DNA of 48,683 nucleotides. It comes from Candidatus Alangreenwoodia gallinarii. Lineage in GTDB: Bacteria > Bacillota > Clostridia > Peptostreptococcales > Anaerovoracaceae. The notes under the pieces were generated by a model that was given only the letters and a program-made list of their open reading frames with translations, was not told the origin of the DNA and searched no databases. The first letter of the stretch is position 1. Each line of letters opens with the position of its first letter. The translations under genes were made by a program, and so were the position numbers. The stretch covers positions 1-48,683 of the forward strand of contig CAJFPD010000031.1 in the NCBI GenBank assembly GCA_904398315.1, read 5' to 3'. Shown here one piece after another: positions 17,769 to 45,044 of the stretch.

Positions 17769-18827
17769 ATGGGTTGCTTCAATGGTTGTTTCAACAGTTG
17801 TCATAACGGCTGCGTATCACCCGACTCCGCACAGGGCTGCTGCAATGCTCATGACCTCTGTCAGTTTGACGGAGATTTCAGCAATGTGGTCTCGGAACCG
17901 ATCTACGTTCAGAAAATCTACGATGCCGTCATGCTCAATCTTCAGGGGCTTAAAACGGTCAGTGCACAGAAATTCTCACCGGCGATTCCGAATGGCTTCC
18001 GTCTGATCGGCGTCTCCGGAATCAGCTGCAGAAAATTTTTCAACCCGGCAAATATCAACGACAGTGCCAATCTCACTTTAAAATGCAATACCACTGTCTC
18101 CGGAGCCAGCTTTGTATGCGATCAGGGCGGAGAAGCAAAGGTCGTCGGACCGGACGGAACGCTCTCAGAAAGAATCCTCTATGCGGACACTTCGGAATGT
18201 GATGAAGAGGGAAAGGGTACACCGATCTTCGGAACTCAGAAAGTGAATATTTCCGGTCAGGTTGTCGTAACGCTCAATCTGATTCTCATGGATAATTTCG
18301 GAAGAGAAGTGACATTCCCTGTCTCGGCTAACGTTTCGATCGCCACCGCAGCTTCTCCTCTGGTCCTGACCAGCTTTTTCGAAATGTGCATGCCGTCCGT
18401 ACATCAGACGGCTATTCTTCCGAGATTTACGGAGCTCTGCAATGTCAGCTGTGAAACGCGTCTGGCCACAAACAGTTACTGCCGGGATCTCACAATCAAT
18501 TCAGGCGGAGAAGTGTGCGGAAATCTGATCATCGCGCTCTGTGTCAATTGTGAAAAGAAGATTATCGTTCCGGTTCAGCTCTGCGTGCTGTCCACCGGAT
18601 TCGTGGAGGTAAGCCCCGATACCTCTCAGATCTGTTCCAGCTTCCCGCAGCTCTTTCCGAATCAACTTCAGAAAGATGACGAGGATACGGAGGGAGACAG
18701 CGACGACTGCCAGCCTTGTTCCGCGCCTCAGCCGGACAGATGTATGCCTTGTGCCATGCCGCCGGGATGTTTTGAGCCGATCCCTCCTTGCCCTCCGGTG
18801 CCTCCTGTTCCTCCGGTCTGCAGATAA
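17769..18827 (+). CDS. Cysteine-rich, Pro-tailed hypothetical protein (candidate spore-coat/surface structural protein)
   Basis: 352 aa with about 27 Cys, N-term MGCFNGCFNSCHNGC, C-term CQPCSAPQPDRCMPCAMPPGCFEPIPPCPPVPPVPPVCR; RBS AAGGAGG. Confidence 0.8.
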   Translation: MGCFNGCFNSCHNGCVSPDSAQGCCNAHDLCQFDGDFSNVVSEPIYVQKIYDAVMLNLQGLKTVSAQKFSPAIPNGFRLIGVSGISCRKFFNPANINDSANLTLKCNTTVSGASFVCDQGGEAKVVGPDGTLSERILYADTSECDEEGKGTPIFGTQKVNISGQVVVTLNLILMDNFGREVTFPVSANVSIATAASPLVLTSFFEMCMPSVHQTAILPRFTELCNVSCETRLATNSYCRDLTINSGGEVCGNLIIALCVNCEKKIIVPVQLCVLSTGFVEVSPDTSQICSSFPQLFPNQLQKDDEDTEGDSDDCQPCSAPQPDRCMPCAMPPGCFEPIPPCPPVPPVPPVCR

Positions 18828-24915: not shown

Positions 24916-27900
24916 TCAGCCCAACCGGCGGACGGAAATTCCTGCCTTATGGCCGTTCAGGCTGTATTCCTCCGGCAGACCGTCCGCATAGAGGAAGCTG
25001 TCAGACAGTGTTTCCTTCATGATATAATCCCGATACGCTTCCAGAGCTTCTTTCGCCTCTTCGTCACACGTAACGGAGAGCTCGATGTGATCCATCATAT
25101 CGAAGTCTTTCTGCTTTCTCAGCTGCTGAACTTTCGAAACAAGTTCCCGTGCCAGGCCTTCCGCCAGAAGTTCCGGCGAAAGCTGTGTATCGAGGAGAAC
25201 GAAGACGCCTCTTTCCGTACCGACAGCAAAGCCCTCTTTCGCAGTCACACGTACATCTACCAGATCCGCCGGAATTTCGGTCTCTTCCCCGCCCAGTCTG
25301 AGCAGAATTTTTCCGTCTGTCCCCAGCTTTGCGATCATCTCCTTAGCATCTGCTGCCGCCAGCGCTTTTCCGAATTCGTTCACTTTCTTACCCAGTACAG
25401 GTCCTGCTTTGCGGAAATCAGGCTTCAGGACGTAATCCAGATAGGTATCCATTTCCTTTTCAAAGACCACATCCTTCACATTCAGCTCTTCCATGATGAG
25501 CGATTTCATGTCGGAGAGCTGCGCCTCGTAGCGGCTGTCCAGAAGGATTTCGCGCAGAGGCTGGCGCACCTTGATCTTTTCCTTCTCTCGCTCTCCTCTG
25601 CCCAGCGTCACGACGGTGCGCACCAGTTCCATCTTTTCCTCCAGGCTGTCATCGATCAGAGATTCATCCGCCTTCGGGAAAAATGCCAGATGAACGGACT
25701 CCTCCCCTGTCAGCTTCGTGTAAATCTCATCCGACAGGAACGGCGCGAACGGAGCCGACAGAAGCGCCACGCCCTTGAGCAGTTCATACGTCGTCAGAAA
25801 GACAGCCTGTTTGTCTTCCGTCATCTCTTCCGCATAAAATCTCCGGCGCGCTCTGCGGATATACCAGTTTGAGAGATCTTCCGACACGAATTCCGTAATC
25901 TTTTTTACAGCTTTCATGTGTTCATAGTTGTCCATATCCGCCGTCACATCGCGCACGAGTCTGTTGTACTTCGACAGAACCCAGCGATCCAGCTCGCTGC
26001 GATGTGCATAAGGGACATCCATTCCGGACAGGTCGATGTCATCCGTATTGGAATAGAGCACAAAGAAATTATATACATTTCTCAGCGTTCCGAAATACTT
26101 ACTCTGGATTTCCATCACGCCGTCTTCATCGAAGCGCGTCGGTGACCAGGCAGGAGACGTATAGAGGAGATACCATCTCGCCACATCCGCACCGTACTTA
26201 TCGAAGAGTGCGAACGGATCTACCGTATTGCCCTTCGATTTCGACATCTTTTTTCCATCTTTATCCAGAATCAGGTCGTTGACGAGGACATTCCGGTACG
26301 GGGCTTTTCCCGTGAGGAAGGTGGAAATCGCCAGCAGCGAGTAGAACCATCCGCGGGTCTGATCGATTCCTTCACAGATAAAGTCCGCCGGGAAATTTTC
26401 CTCAAAGACATCCTGATTTTCAAACGGATAGTGAAGCTGCGCGAACGGCATGGAGCCGCTGTCAAACCAGCAGTCCATGACCTCCGGTATTCTCGTCATC
26501 GTCTTTCCGCAGACCGGACATGTCAGATGGACGTCATCCACATAAGGGCGGTGCAGCTCGATATTCTCGTCAATATCCTCCTGAGCGCGTTCCGCCAGCT
26601 CCGCTCTGGATCCGATGCATTCCACGTGTCCGCATTCGCATCTCCAGATCGGAATCGGCGTTCCCCAGTAACGATTACGGGAAATCGCCCAGTCTTTAAC
26701 ATCTGCCAGCCAGTTGCCGAAGCGGCCCTCCCCGACAAAAGGAGGATGCCATTTTACCGTATTGTTGTTTTCCACCAGCTGGTCTCTGAGCTTCGTCATT
26801 TCGATATACCAGCTCGGCTTCGCATAATAGATCAGCGGCGTTCCGCATCTCCAGCAGTGCGGATAGTTATGCTCCACCTTCTTCTTCGAGAAGATCTTGT
26901 CCTCCGATGCCAGCCACCTGATGATATCCACATCCAGTCCGTCCTCCATGACGAAGCGGCCGGCCCACGGAGTATCCGTATATTTTCCGTCCTCACCCAC
27001 AGGATTGAGAACCGGCAGATCGTATCTGCGGCCCACCTGATAGTCGTCTTCACCGAAAGCCGGTGCGATGTGGACGATGCCGGTACCTTCCTCGGTGCTG
27101 ACATAATCGGCGCAGGTGACGAAAAATGCTTTCTTTTCTGTGGAAAGAAACGGCATGAGCTGCTCGTATTCCATATACTCCAGATCTCTGCCCTTCATCT
27201 CCTGAAGAACGGTATACGTTCCCTCCTCCAGGACTTCATCCGCCAGAGCCTTTGCCACATAGTAGATGCTTCCGTCCTTTTCCGCCTTTACATAATCGAT
27301 CTCCGGTCCCGCCGCCAGCGCCACATTGGCTGCCAGCGTCCACGGCGTCGTCGTCCATGCCAGGAAATATTCATTTTCTGTCCCCTTTTTCCGGAATTTC
27401 GCCGTGATGGTCGTGGACTTGATCTCTTTATAGCCCTGCGCCACTTCATGGGAAGCCAGTCCCGTTCCGCACCGCGGACAGTAAGGCAGAATCTTGTGTC
27501 CTTCGTAGATCATTCCCGCGTCAAAAAATTTCTTCAGGATCCACCAGCCTGTTTCGATAAAATTGTTATCCAGCGTGATATATGGATGATCCAGATCGAT
27601 GAGATATCCCATGCGCTTCGACATGCTGCGCCACATACCTTCATATTCGAAGACGGATTCACGGCATTTTTCATTGAACTCCTTGATGCCGTATTTTTCG
27701 ATATCCTGTTTTCCGCTCATCTTCAGACGCTTTTCCACTTCGATTTCGACCGGAAGTCCGTGGGTATCCCATCCGGCCTTGCGCTTGACTTTATACCCCT
27801 GCATCGTCTTATAGCGGCATACAGAATCCTTGAGTGCCCGGGCGATCACATGATGAATACCCGGCTTTCCGTTTGCGGTAGGCGGTCCCTCGTAAAATAC

Positions 27901-28020
27901 AAAGGAAGGCTGTCCCTCCCTTTCCGTCACACACTTTTCCAGAAGATTTTCTTTCTCCCACCGGTCAGCCTGTTCATTCTGAACTTCACTGATCGGTCTG
28001 TCCGATAAATTTTCAAACAT
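24916..28020 (-). CDS. ileS: Isoleucyl-tRNA synthetase
   Basis: YEGPPTANGKPGIHHVIARALKD (HIGH-type), KMSKSKGNTVDP; Ile-specifier T-box upstream; likely start MFENLSDRPI at 28020 (ORF to 28050). Confidence 0.97.
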   Translation of the reverse strand: MFENLSDRPISEVQNEQADRWEKENLLEKCVTEREGQPSFVFYEGPPTANGKPGIHHVIARALKDSVCRYKTMQGYKVKRKAGWDTHGLPVEIEVEKRLKMSGKQDIEKYGIKEFNEKCRESVFEYEGMWRSMSKRMGYLIDLDHPYITLDNNFIETGWWILKKFFDAGMIYEGHKILPYCPRCGTGLASHEVAQGYKEIKSTTITAKFRKKGTENEYFLAWTTTPWTLAANVALAAGPEIDYVKAEKDGSIYYVAKALADEVLEEGTYTVLQEMKGRDLEYMEYEQLMPFLSTEKKAFFVTCADYVSTEEGTGIVHIAPAFGEDDYQVGRRYDLPVLNPVGEDGKYTDTPWAGRFVMEDGLDVDIIRWLASEDKIFSKKKVEHNYPHCWRCGTPLIYYAKPSWYIEMTKLRDQLVENNNTVKWHPPFVGEGRFGNWLADVKDWAISRNRYWGTPIPIWRCECGHVECIGSRAELAERAQEDIDENIELHRPYVDDVHLTCPVCGKTMTRIPEVMDCWFDSGSMPFAQLHYPFENQDVFEENFPADFICEGIDQTRGWFYSLLAISTFLTGKAPYRNVLVNDLILDKDGKKMSKSKGNTVDPFALFDKYGADVARWYLLYTSPAWSPTRFDEDGVMEIQSKYFGTLRNVYNFFVLYSNTDDIDLSGMDVPYAHRSELDRWVLSKYNRLVRDVTADMDNYEHMKAVKKITEFVSEDLSNWYIRRARRRFYAEEMTEDKQAVFLTTYELLKGVALLSAPFAPFLSDEIYTKLTGEESVHLAFFPKADESLIDDSLEEKMELVRTVVTLGRGEREKEKIKVRQPLREILLDSRYEAQLSDMKSLIMEELNVKDVVFEKEMDTYLDYVLKPDFRKAGPVLGKKVNEFGKALAAADAKEMIAKLGTDGKILLRLGGEETEIPADLVDVRVTAKEGFAVGTERGVFVLLDTQLSPELLAEGLARELVSKVQQLRKQKDFDMMDHIELSVTCDEEAKEALEAYRDYIMKETLSDSFLYADGLPEEYSLNGHKAGISVRRLG

Positions 28021-28080
28021 ATCTGCTCTCCCTGCAAAAACATAAAACATAATAAACGGTAAACTCCCGAAACCCTGCGG

Positions 28081-28248: not shown

Positions 28249-28540
28249 AAAAAATCCCTGCATCCACAATGGATGCAGGGACGGAATGACCGCGGTACCA
28301 CCCTGTTAGCCTTTTCTTTTCCGCACAGAAGTGCGGCCGAAAAGACCTCTTCGGCTCTCTGCCTAACGCGCAGGAACGGATCTGACTACTGACCTCTGCG
28401 CAGACATGTGCAGACTGTTCACCAGACCGGCTCAGGAGTGATCTTCACGACATCCTCACCTGCAGGCTCTCACCTCATCCTGCTTCTCTGTAAGGCTGAA
28501 ATGGCGCTACTCTCTCCGTCACAGCTTTTTATCATACTGT
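28249..28540 (-). promoter_or_regulatory. T-box leader of ileS
   Basis: Minus strand AGGGTGGTACCGCGG (28290-28304), GAGAGAGTA motif, specifier GAAG-ATC-ACT (Ile), terminator CCCTGCATCC/GGATGCAGGG + T7. Confidence 0.95.
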
Positions 28541-40650: not shown

Positions 40651-40920
40651 TCAGGCTCCTTCTCCGGAGGATTCCCCGGCTGACGGTGCGTCGCTGATCT
40701 GAATTCCATTGTTGTCTATATGATAATCCTCATGATAGATCAGATCGTCGATCTTCACCACCTCGTATCCGCTGTTTCTCAGATTCTCCAGAACCTGAGG
40801 GAGATATTCCAGGACGTGCTGCGCGTTGTTGTGAAACAAAATGATGGAGCCGTTTCCCACATTACGGCTGACTCTCTCTACGATCTGCGCCGCGCTGATA
40901 TCTTTCCAGTCGAGGCTGTC
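40651..40920 (-). CDS. 3' (C-terminal) segment of interrupted PdaB-like polysaccharide deacetylase
   Basis: Reads ..D-SLDWKDISAAQIVERVSRNVGNGSIILFHNNAQHVLEYLPQVL (NodB motifs 4 and 5), in frame with ORF 40651..40860. Confidence 0.9.
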   Translation of the reverse strand, partial: DSLDWKDISAAQIVERVSRNVGNGSIILFHNNAQHVLEYLPQVLENLRNSGYEVVKIDDLIYHEDYHIDNNGIQISDAPSAGESSGEGA

Positions 40921-40968
40921 AGCGTGCGCCGCAGCGGAAAATGAGAAATACCGTTTGACGGGAAGTAT

Positions 40969-41346
40969 TTACCTTTGTTTTACTGCGATGCACTCGATTT
41001 CCACCCTGCTGCCTTTCGGAATCGCGGCCACCTGAACGCAGCTGCGAGCGGGATACGGTTCCTGAAAGCGGGAGGCATAGACTTCATTCATCGCGGCAAA
41101 ATCACCGAGATCCGCTAAAAATACCGATGTTTTCACCACATCCGCCATCGTCATGCCGTTTGCGCCCAGAATATTTTCGAGATTGGAAAGCGACTGTGCC
41201 GTCTGCTCTTCAATCGTTTCCGGAATATTTCCGGTCTGCGGATCCACCGGAATCTGCCCTGATACAAATACAATCCCTGCTGTTTCCAGTCCCTGAGAAT
41301 ACGGTCCGATAGCCGCCGGAGCCTTTGTCGTACTGATAACTTTCAT
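40969..41346 (-). CDS. ridA: RidA family enamine/imine deaminase (element cargo)
   Basis: MKVISTTKAPAAIGPYSQGLETAGIVFVSGQIPVDPQTG..YPARSCVQVAAIPKGSRVEIECIA. Confidence 0.95.
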   Translation of the reverse strand: MKVISTTKAPAAIGPYSQGLETAGIVFVSGQIPVDPQTGNIPETIEEQTAQSLSNLENILGANGMTMADVVKTSVFLADLGDFAAMNEVYASRFQEPYPARSCVQVAAIPKGSRVEIECIAVKQR

Positions 41347-41448
41347 TCTCTTTTCTCCTTCTCTGCCTGATGTCCGATAAACGTGAATTTCTTCAGCGTG
41401 AATTTCTTCGCTCTGTATTTTTTCTTTCCGGTCTTAACCGGTCGGTTT

Positions 41449-42654
41449 TCAGACGCGTTCCGTCACGAGTACGAAGCCCGCTTCTGAAAGAGCCTTTTTT
41501 ATCTGTTCGATCTGCTGTCTGTCTCTCGTCTCCAGAGCCAGCTTCAGAAAACAGCTGGTGATGGCCATATTGGCATCAGATCTGTCATAGTGAACCGCCA
41601 CAACATTTCCGCCGCAGCCGGCGATAATCTCCGATACTTCCTGAAGCTGTCCGGGCTTATCGGTAAGAGCGATGGTCAGATTGACATTCCTTCCGCTGGT
41701 CACCAGTCCTCTGGTGATGACCCGGCTGAGAATATTTACATCGATGTTTCCGCCCGAAACGATACACACGACCTTCTTACCCTTCACAGGGAGCTTGCCC
41801 GCCATAACGGCAGCTACGCCAACTGCGCCCGCGCCTTCCGCGATGACCTTCTGCTTTTCGATCAGAGCCAGAATCGCTGCCGCGATCTCATCTTCGCTGA
41901 CTGTCACCAGGCCGTCCACATATTCTTCTACGATTTTATAGGTCAGATCGCCCGGATGCTTTACCGCAATGCCGTCAGCAAAAGTGGCCGCGCTGTCCAG
42001 CATAATCGGCTTTCCTGCCTTGCGGCTTTCCACCATTCCCGCTGCACCTGCAGCCTGTACACCATATACTTTTACTTTCGGATTCAGATGCTTGATGGCA
42101 TAAGCTACGCCGGAGATCAGCCCGCCGCCGCCTACGGGGACGACGACAGCATCCGGATTTTCGATCTCATCCAGAATTTCCAGACCGATGGTTCCCTGAC
42201 CCGCGATCACTTCATCATCATCGAAGGGATGGATAAAAGTGGCCCCTGTTTCTTTCTGCAGCTGCAGAGCTTTTTCATAGGCGTCGTCATAAACACCTTT
42301 GACGAGGCATACTTCCGCCCCCAGCTGCTTGGTGGCCTCCACCTTGCTGATCGGCGCATCATCCGGCATGCAGATCATGGAACGTATACCGCTGTGTGTG
42401 GCGGCCATCGCAACGCCCTGCGCATGATTTCCGGCGCTGCAGGCGATGATGCCGTGCTTTTTTTCCTCTTCGCTCAGCTGGCTGATCTTATAATATGCTC
42501 CCCGCAGCTTAAAACTCCCGGTCTCCTGAAGATTTTCCGTCTTCAGATAGAGTTCGCACTCGCCGGACAGTTTTGTCGCCCGGATGAGATCTGTCTTTCT
42601 CGCCACATTTTTCAGGACAAATGCAGCGTGATATATCTTATCGAGTGTAAGCAT
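41449..42654 (-). CDS. Threonine dehydratase (IlvA/TdcB family) with C-terminal ACT domain (element cargo)
   Basis: ENLQETGSFKLRGAYYKI (PLP lysine), CSAGNHAQGVA, VVPVGGGGLISG, ACT region VNLTIALTDKPGQLQEVSEII. Confidence 0.95.
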   Translation of the reverse strand: MLTLDKIYHAAFVLKNVARKTDLIRATKLSGECELYLKTENLQETGSFKLRGAYYKISQLSEEEKKHGIIACSAGNHAQGVAMAATHSGIRSMICMPDDAPISKVEATKQLGAEVCLVKGVYDDAYEKALQLQKETGATFIHPFDDDEVIAGQGTIGLEILDEIENPDAVVVPVGGGGLISGVAYAIKHLNPKVKVYGVQAAGAAGMVESRKAGKPIMLDSAATFADGIAVKHPGDLTYKIVEEYVDGLVTVSEDEIAAAILALIEKQKVIAEGAGAVGVAAVMAGKLPVKGKKVVCIVSGGNIDVNILSRVITRGLVTSGRNVNLTIALTDKPGQLQEVSEIIAGCGGNVVAVHYDRSDANMAITSCFLKLALETRDRQQIEQIKKALSEAGFVLVTERV

Positions 42655-42726
42655 TCTTTTCTTTTGCCTCCATCTTTTTTAATTATTTTTCTTTTCGTCA
42701 CATTTTTATATCATACCACAAACTCC

Positions 42727-42755
42727 TCATATTTGCTCCGAAATTTGCATACAAT
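42727..42755 (+). promoter_or_regulatory. Sporulation sigma-E promoter driving 55-aa ORF/recombinase
   Basis: TCATATT-N14-CATACAAT, exact match to B. subtilis sigma-E consensus KMATATT-N14-CATACAMT. Confidence 0.8.
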
Positions 42756-42817
42756 TTGAAAAACAACACCGGAAGAAACACCGGATATCTTATCCGTGTC
42801 ACAGGAGATTTACAGAT

Positions 42818-42985
42818 ATGAAAACAAAAAGAAAAAATTCCGGCGCCGCATCGTCTGCGGAATATACAGTCTGTCATCACGGTCTGGACCCGGATCATCC
42901 CACACCGCTGCAGGCTGCCTCTATCCTGCGTCTGCTTCATAATGCCGCTCTTTTGCGTTCAGAAGAGGAAAACACGGAAAAATGA
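42818..42985 (+). CDS. 55-aa protein, candidate recombination directionality factor/excisionase
   Basis: MKTKRKNSGAASSAEYTVCHHGLDPDHPTPLQAASILRLLHNAALLRSEEENTEK; AGGAG RBS; stop overlaps recombinase start (ATGA). Not in supplied ORF track. Confidence 0.7.
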   Translation: MKTKRKNSGAASSAEYTVCHHGLDPDHPTPLQAASILRLLHNAALLRSEEENTEK

Positions 42986-44460
42986 AAAATACTGCGACCG
43001 AACAGACAACAGAAAAAAGGACAGCGATCTACGCCCGGCAGTCGGTGGATAAAAAAGACTCCATTTCGGTAGAGACACAGATCGAACTCTGCCGCACCCG
43101 GTGCGGAGAAGATGCTGTCTGCATCTATACGGACCGCGGCTTCAGCGGAAAAAATCTGAAACGCCCCGGCTACATAAAAATGACCGGCGATATCGCCTGC
43201 GGAAAGATCCGGCGCGTCATGGTATACCGTCTGGACCGTCTCAGCCGTTCTGTCGGAGATTTCAGTAAAATGTGGGAAATCTTCGAGAGATATGGCGTTG
43301 AATTTTCTTCCATCAGCGAACAGTTTGATACCTCTACCCCCATCGGCAAGGCCATGGTTTACATTATCATGACCTTCGCACAGCTGGAGCGTGAAACGAT
43401 CGCCGAACGGGTATCGGACAATTATTATTCGCGCATCCGTACGGGAGCCTGGCCCGGCGGCAGAGCTCCCTTCGGTTTCTGCAACACGCGTCTGATTTCG
43501 GGAGGTCACAGTGTCCCTTCTCTGTCTGCTGATGAAAACGCCCCGACAGTCTGCAGGATTTTCAGCGAATATGCCTCCTCCGGCCGAAGCCTCGCTTCCA
43601 TCGCAAAAGAACTGTCCAAAGAAAAATCCGCTTCCGCGGCACGCTCCCGCGGCTGGGACAGCAAATCTCTGTCCCGCATGCTGCGTTCCCCTGTCTACAC
43701 ATCAGCAGACCGCGCCGTCCTGCTTTATTACCGGAATATGGGAATCGGTACGATCTCCAACAGAGACGAGGAATTCGACGGCACATTTTCCGCCCATATC
43801 GTCGGAAAACGTTCCTCTCAGACATCTGTAAGCAATCCGATGTCGCAGCGCACTCTGTCTCTGACGAATTTCCCCGGTATTGTAGACTCCGGTACCTGGC
43901 TTCGCTGCCAACAGCGCCTGGATCAGAACAGACAGCTGGCAAAGCCGGGAACGGAAAGTCCCTCCTGGCTTTCCGGTATCCTCCGATGCGCTTCCTGCGG
44001 TTATTCCGTCCGCATCAAAAAAGCCGGCGGCAGGCGCTATCTCAGCTGCAGCGGCAGACATAATCTTCATATATGCAGAGTCAGCTCTTTTTTGGTGAAG
44101 ATCGATGAACTGGAACGGCAGGTCGAATCCTGCATCTCATCACTGCTTTCTTCCTCTGCAGAGGCTCTTCAAAGAGGCAGAAAACGTCAGGCCGCCATCG
44201 ACGAGGAGATCCGAGGACTTGTAGAGAACTGCGCACTCGCAACGGATATCTCCATGAAATATATCAATGAGAAAATCGGTGAACTGGAAACCGAAAAACA
44301 ACAGCTCGCAAAGCTGGATCACCTGTTTTCCGATTCCGCACCGTTCTCCTTTGCTGCAGACAGAATTTTTTCCGGAAAAAAAGAGGCGGCTGCGCTTCTC
44401 ATCGACCGGATCGAAATCGATGGCAGAAAAATCGATATCTACTGGAAAACGGATATCTGA
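42982..44460 (+). CDS. Large serine recombinase (resolvase + recombinase + Zn-ribbon + coiled coil)
   Basis: YARQSVDKKDSISVETQIELC, DRGFSGKNLKRPGYIKM, YRLDRLSRSVGDF, FAQLERETIAERV, LRCASCGY..RYLSCSGRHNLHIC. Confidence 0.97.
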   Translation: MKNTATEQTTEKRTAIYARQSVDKKDSISVETQIELCRTRCGEDAVCIYTDRGFSGKNLKRPGYIKMTGDIACGKIRRVMVYRLDRLSRSVGDFSKMWEIFERYGVEFSSISEQFDTSTPIGKAMVYIIMTFAQLERETIAERVSDNYYSRIRTGAWPGGRAPFGFCNTRLISGGHSVPSLSADENAPTVCRIFSEYASSGRSLASIAKELSKEKSASAARSRGWDSKSLSRMLRSPVYTSADRAVLLYYRNMGIGTISNRDEEFDGTFSAHIVGKRSSQTSVSNPMSQRTLSLTNFPGIVDSGTWLRCQQRLDQNRQLAKPGTESPSWLSGILRCASCGYSVRIKKAGGRRYLSCSGRHNLHICRVSSFLVKIDELERQVESCISSLLSSSAEALQRGRKRQAAIDEEIRGLVENCALATDISMKYINEKIGELETEKQQLAKLDHLFSDSAPFSFAADRIFSGKKEAAALLIDRIEIDGRKIDIYWKTDI

Positions 44461-44526
44461 AGCAGACGGAAACCGTATGCGGAACATGAGAGTGCATGTC
44501 CTTTCCTTTCCCCTGCGGCGCACGTA

Positions 44527-45044
44527 TCAACCGACCACTGGATCGTCTGATAACCTAAAGATTCCGCCGTCTCGATCAGAGTGTCCGAATAGGAACCGTA
44601 AGGCGGCCGGAACAGGGTCGGCCGGCTGCCCGTCAGAGATTCGATGGTATCCGCGGAAGTATTCAGTTCTTCTGCGATCTCAGCCTCTGACAGATTTGCC
44701 ATATCCGGATGCGTCGTGGAATGGTTTCCGATATCGTGCCCCCGCGCCGCAATCTCCTTTACGTCCTCCGGATATTCCTGAGACCAGAAATCCACCAGAA
44801 AGAAGGTAGCCTTTACGTCATATGTATCGAGAATATCGAGAATTCCGGCGGTAAACTCATTTCCCCATGCGGCATCGAAGCTGATGGCCACCTTCTTTTC
44901 GTCGGTATCCACACCGTAGACCGGTACACGCCGTTCGTTTCCGAAGGAAGCACTGCACACTGCCACTACCACGGCCAGTGCCGCCACAAAAACGATCATG
45001 AAGATTTTCTGCAGTTTTTCCCGCCTGCCGGCTCTGTCTTCCAT
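44527..45044 (-). CDS. 5' (N-terminal) segment of interrupted PdaB-like polysaccharide deacetylase (ORF continues into element to 44439)
   Basis: N-terminal TM segment; NodB motifs SFDAAWG, HSTTHP, RPPYGSYSD; native sequence ends QWSVD and then reads into unrelated CAAGERKGHALSC. Confidence 0.93.

Follow-up and report, generated by a model that had tools for sequence, protein, structure and literature searches.

The closest described systems are elements that split a sporulation gene. In B. subtilis and C. difficile, sigK is split by the skin element, and a 72-aa directionality factor under the control of sigma-E and SpoIIID determines when skin is excised in C. difficile (PMC5025042). In B. 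cereus ATCC10987, gerE contains the gin element (PMC5595907); in C. botulinum, yabG is split by the yin element (PMC10747680); and in B. subtilis, the SP-beta prophage resides in spsM, a spore envelope gene that is restored when the prophage is excised during sporulation (PMC4191935). The kind of rearrangement considered here is therefore a known one, and what is new is the target gene, pdaB, together with the minimal size of the element and its metabolic cargo; no report of pdaB as the target of a programmed gene rearrangement was found in the literature searched. A 29-bp motif at this locus is quite probably the sigma-E promoter of a two-gene operon carried by a skin-like element, the excision of which during sporulation would rebuild pdaB. 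Throughout, the window is the whole stretch of DNA that was analysed (48,683 nucleotides), which comes from an uncultured spore-forming bacterium, and the genomes analysed are draft metagenome-assembled genomes.

The pdaB gene, which encodes a spore polysaccharide deacetylase, is present in the window in two parts. The 5' part ends early, after ..QWSVD, and the missing 3' part is found 3.6 kb off; no start or promoter of its own was recognised for the 3' part. The features of the region, from the 3' part of pdaB to the 5' part, are as follows:

40651 to 40920, minus strand: pdaB 3' part
40906 to 40934, minus strand: attachment site at the pdaB 3' part, CTGCGGCGCACGCT-GA-CAGCCTCGACTGG, with the crossover dinucleotide at 40919-40920 and an inverted-repeat arm at 40923-40934
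40969 to 41346, minus strand: ridA (Rid family), element cargo
41449 to 42654, minus strand: ilvA (threonine ammonia-lyase), element cargo, divergent from the recombinase operon
42710 to 42718, minus strand: probable extended -10 of the divergent ilvA promoter, TGGTATGAT, kept in the sister species (G001) and overlapping the conserved block described below, with a predicted start at ~42703
42727 to 42755, plus strand: predicted sigma-E-type promoter, TCATATT-N14-CATACAAT, with a predicted start at ~42762
42818 to 42985, plus strand: 55-aa ORF with translational coupling to the recombinase gene; may encode a recombination directionality factor
42982 to 44460, plus strand: large serine recombinase with Resolvase, Recombinase and Zn-ribbon domains
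44513 to 44536, minus strand: attachment site at the pdaB 5' part, GGTCGGTT-GA-TACGTGCGCCGCAG, with the crossover dinucleotide at 44527-44528 and an inverted-repeat arm at 44513-44524
44529 to 45044, minus strand: pdaB 5' part (best match, the spore PdaB family TIGR02764, positions 1-128 of 191)

The two crossover sites have the GA dinucleotide in common and carry inverted arms on the element side (CTGCGGCGCACG and CGTGCGCCGCAG). Joining the flanks yields an uninterrupted PdaB of 261 aa (263 aa in the sister species), with CAGTGGTCGGTTGACAGCCTCGACTGG as the predicted joined pdaB site and CTGCGGCGCACGCTGATACGTGCGCCGCAG as the predicted circle junction; in the sister species, the rejoined element site forms an inverted repeat of 22 bp, without mismatch, around CTGATA. 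With a length of 3,608 bp (3,607 bp in the sister species), the element is filled by the ORFs of ridA, ilvA, the 55-aa protein and the recombinase, the last of which lies inside the element and adjoins an attachment site (it ends at 44460, and the crossover is at 44527). No phage structural or replication genes, as a prophage or defective prophage would carry, were found in the element (40919-44528). The sigK gene, which is the target of skin, is a single uninterrupted ORF in this genome and was ruled out as the target of the element.

The stop codon of the 55-aa ORF overlaps the start of the recombinase gene (ATGA, 42982-42985). The ORF is kept in the sister species at 50% identity, and the recombinase has an ortholog there that is 72% identical and occupies the same location. 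A family search with the 55-aa ORF gave no match; judging by its position, size and coupling, the protein is probably a directionality factor. It is extremely unlikely that the element is a decayed insertion, with pdaB dead and nothing being excised. Although excision is deduced from sequence, and from metagenome assemblies at that, both pdaB parts (dN/dS 0.065 for the 5' part and 0.10 for the 3' part), the recombinase (0.14) and, to a lesser degree, the 55-aa ORF (0.22) are under purifying selection, these values being rough with dS near saturation. Moreover, the attachment-site halves are intact in both species, and the same arrangement recurs in other genera.

In many sporulating relatives, pdaB is contiguous and usually followed by ssb, which likewise follows the 3' part here. 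In particular, G065 has an intact pdaB (69% identical) in the gene order hom-pdaB-ssb-ilvA-ridA. Its ilvA-ridA pair is located downstream of ssb (L151:7180-8830), and the pair in the window is located inside the pdaB element (40969-42654). By the gene order in G065, ilvA and ridA were neighbouring genes that ended up within the element in this genus, and host metabolic genes were thereby incorporated into an element for which excision is predicted. In G071, G073 and G240, pdaB is split at the same GA codon, and a homologous recombinase (35-41% identical to that of the window) is found in or beside the interruption. G116, in which the 5' part of pdaB and the end of a recombinase share one contig, is probably a fourth other genus with a split pdaB. 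The initial annotation had placed the recombinase in a skin-like model, and this model is supported by the location of the recombinase within an element that splits pdaB, by the matching attachment-site halves and by the split relatives in other genera.

The cargo of the pdaB elements varies by genus and is metabolic or transport-like (L139, L140, L141, L149, L150). Read from ORF sequences only, the cargo in G240 resembles subunits of NADH-dehydrogenase/hydrogenase, and that in G116 consists of ABC-transporter-like genes. The position and orientation of the recombinase relative to the two sites also differ among genera. Solo recombinases that are 36-38% identical to the one in the window occur in other clostridial genomes (L004:5983-7518, plus strand; L005:5983-7497, plus strand), and no obvious split gene was seen in the flanks inspected. 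Elsewhere in the window, a T-box leader (RF00230, 112 bits; 28274-28531, minus strand) is located upstream of a large tRNA-synthetase-like ORF (24916-28050, minus strand), and a 352-aa ORF (17769-18827, plus strand) has a cysteine-rich N-terminus (MGCFNGCFNSCHNGC...) and C-terminus.

The B. subtilis sigma-E consensus, in the form in which the initial annotation gave it, is KMATATT-N14-CATACAMT. The written consensus strings were not found in the literature searched. The claim that the plus strand carries an exact match in front of the recombinase operon proved correct: TCATATT (42727-42733) is followed by a 14-nt spacer and CATACAAT (42748-42755), so that 15 of the 15 specified positions agree with that consensus. 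The distance to the 55-aa ORF coupled to the recombinase, which had been put at ~60 nt, is 62 nt to the ATG at 42818. As for how often the motif arises elsewhere, it is the sole exact match in the draft genome of 2,245,604 bases (2.25 Mb), in which one further site has a single mismatch and the reversed pattern, used as a control, has 0 matches. Even with 2 mismatches allowed, the window contains no other match, compared with an average of 0.5 in shuffled sequences. Under a first-order Markov model, 0.02-0.3 exact matches are expected per genome and 9.5e-6 in the intergenic region of 163 bp; a match with 0 mismatches did not arise in any of 3,000 simulated regions, with spacers of 13-15 allowed. 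The uniqueness in the genome, the empty control, the Markov expectation and the simulations thus indicate that the motif is more than a chance occurrence.

The motif is also conserved. The comparison spans the two species of the genus that were found: in the sister species (G001; L003/L022/L081), all 15 specified positions and the 14-nt spacing are kept, and the spacer is identical at 13 of 14 positions. Across the motif, 27 of 29 columns of the alignment are conserved, and immediately downstream of CATACAAT the figure falls to 17 of 31. Conservation alone cannot assign this block, since it also extends over the probable promoter of ilvA, which is transcribed divergently; ilvA is on the opposite strand and starts 56 nt past the block, which includes TGGTATGAT. 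It might accordingly be supposed that the block is conserved solely as the ilvA promoter, for example, read on the minus strand, as TTGTAT-N17-TATGAG or as the bases that precede TGGTATGAT in its promoter, and that the sigma-E match is incidental. This is very unlikely. In a three-way alignment, the region upstream of ilvA in G065, the sole comparison available, does have TTGTA and AATATGA at comparable positions; however, the similarity is not above that of shuffles (487 and 143 of 1,000 shuffles equal it), and the region was therefore rejected as proof that the block belongs to ilvA. Moreover, the sigma-E pattern is absent upstream of ilvA in G065, where no recombinase adjoins ilvA; conservation in the window falls sharply past the end of CATACAAT; and an accidental exact match at 15 positions is expected ~1e-5 times in the intergenic region.

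Other sigma factors were considered as well. By eye, readings for sigma-F, sigma-G and sigma-K were rejected, as neither a GG-type -10 nor an AC -35 was seen at an appropriate distance. Transcription of the operon by sigma-A in vegetative cells, from the TACAAT within the -10, would mean that the recombinase is always present and that excision is timed otherwise. TACAAT matches the sigma-A -10 at 5 of 6 positions, and the skin recombinase gene of C. difficile indeed has a sigma-A promoter, with only the directionality factor being sigma-E-controlled (PMC5025042); here, however, the small ORF and the recombinase belong to one transcription unit. In addition, there is no acceptable -35 at 16-18 nt, a consensus scan of the promoter region found no sigma-70-type promoter, and what is conserved upstream is TCATATT, which is sigma-E-like and exactly 14 nt away. 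Transcription by sigma-A is thus unlikely, and the assignment of the motif at 42727-42755 as the sigma-E promoter of the operon formed by the 55-aa ORF and the recombinase is well supported and likely.

The genome encodes sigma-E (sigE) as well as spoIIIAA, spoIVA and spoIIID. In B. subtilis, pdaB is a sigma-E gene and is expressed in the mother cell. Polysaccharide deacetylases of C. difficile are activated by sigma-E and repressed by SpoIIID (PMC3789822). Mother-cell timing, as predicted from the motif, would thus suit pdaB.

A related pattern occurs in other genera. In both G240 and G073, the recombinase gene comes after a small ORF, and the conserved block upstream of that ORF, ACATAAACAAGCCT-N8-CATATnGTT, reads as the sigma-E-like ACATAAA-N14-CATATGGT or ACATAAA-N14-CATATTGT (ACATAAA-N14-CATATnGT), with the same 14-nt spacing as in the window. 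This sigma-E-like block overlaps a SpoIIID-type box, ATAAACAAGC, an exact match to the B. subtilis SpoIIID box. The small ORFs in these two genomes are alike, but show no clear similarity to the 55-aa ORF. In G071, neither a small ORF nor such a promoter was seen before the recombinase. Upstream of spoIIID, both species of the genus have CATAAA-N14-CATATATT. A loose pattern, [AC]ATA[AT][AT]-N14-CATANNNT, fits six regions, namely those of the window, the sister species, G240 and G073 and that of spoIIID in both species; in these regions, 0-27 of 2,000 shuffles reached the pattern, figures that serve as a guide and not as a test because the pattern was written after the sequences had been seen. 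It occurs once in the window and is absent from the ~90 kb of other host DNA scanned. It is also absent upstream of spoIVA, spoIIIAA, pdaB and the sigG-associated recombinases (see below); the upstream blocks of spoIIIAA and spoIVA differ here and read TTCTAAA-N13-...

A second split gene is sigG. The product of sigG is the master regulator of the forespore. In G000, G001, G017, G065 and G116 (at least four genera), the gene is interrupted at the same codon, after ..STYAVPM, whereas the rest of the sporulating members of the family surveyed have it, nearly without exception, as one open frame. The loci are as follows:

L023, 8692 to 9087, minus strand: split sigG
L058, 11075 to 11560, plus strand: split sigG
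L059, L060, L061, L144, L143 and L148: further split sigG loci
L023, 2842 to 4242, plus strand: sigG-associated serine recombinase, with orthologs in G001 (88%), G065 (67%) and G116 (65%)
L079; L144, 7064 to 8440, minus strand; L148, 8207 to 9613, minus strand: further sigG-associated recombinases

The site halves are conserved, and both sigG halves are under purifying selection. The sigG halves of G000 and G001 have CCCGATG in common, and recombination is predicted to yield an inverted repeat, CCTTCCGACATTCATC-CC-GATGAATGTCGGAAGG, as the product site. The halves in G017 (L061) lie on opposite strands of one contig, ~7.5 kb apart, and inversion would thus restore the gene. The associated recombinase directly abuts the 5' part of sigG in G065 and G116. 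The recombinase of the window was ruled out as the enzyme that rebuilds sigG, as the split sigG is accompanied by this different recombinase. The sigG-associated recombinases, a second serine recombinase family, are also preceded by a small ORF, and it is this small ORF that shares a short C-terminal motif (like ILLTARRRA). Taken together, the two cases show that the genus uses what appear to be gene-rebuilding recombinase systems at least twice. There is an even chance that it runs two programmed rearrangements, a sigma-E-timed rebuilding of pdaB in the mother cell and a rebuilding of sigG, by inversion in one genome.

From the motif and its conservation, the split gene with its attachment-site halves, the in-frame joined ORF and the relatives with split or intact pdaB, we infer that sigma-E transcribes the operon, that the element is excised, that the 55-aa protein acts as proposed and that the process is confined to the mother cell. 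During vegetative growth, the element would stay in place and pdaB would be off. Upon sporulation, the recombinase, probably together with the 55-aa protein as a directionality factor, would cross over at the GA common to both sites. The element would be released as a circle that carries ilvA, ridA and the recombinase genes, and the uninterrupted 261-aa pdaB would remain. The chromosome of the forespore, and later of the spore, would retain the element, which would thus be inherited.

As they are very small, carry ordinary metabolic cargo without phage genes and split the same codon in several genera, the pdaB elements appear to reduce such a rearrangement to its minimum, namely a promoter, a small protein, a recombinase and a pair of short sites. 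Its timing can be tested directly through the conserved sigma-E-type promoter, and the element offers a small site-specific recombinase with both of its sites defined.

Among the described systems, the skin element resembles the pdaB element in that a serine recombinase gene lies inside an element that splits a mother-cell sporulation gene, that the excision module is under sigma-E (as is predicted here) and that a small directionality factor is involved, which is of 72 aa in C. difficile (PMC5025042) and for which the 55-aa protein is the candidate here. In contrast to skin, the target here is pdaB and not sigK, the element is only 3.6 kb long and has no phage genes, and the putative factor and the recombinase form one operon, whereas sigma-E control in C. 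difficile is limited to the factor. The gin element is likewise a non-phage element that splits a sporulation gene, and it encodes a serine recombinase along with a small accessory factor; however, it comprises 28.6 kb, has three recombinases and resides in gerE, compared with 3.6 kb, one recombinase and pdaB here (PMC5595907). The yin element also splits a sporulation gene in a clostridium, but it is prophage-like and has a different target (PMC10747680). Excision of SP-beta during sporulation restores a spore envelope gene, as is proposed for pdaB in form; SP-beta, however, is an active prophage, whereas the pdaB element is small and carries metabolic cargo (PMC4191935).
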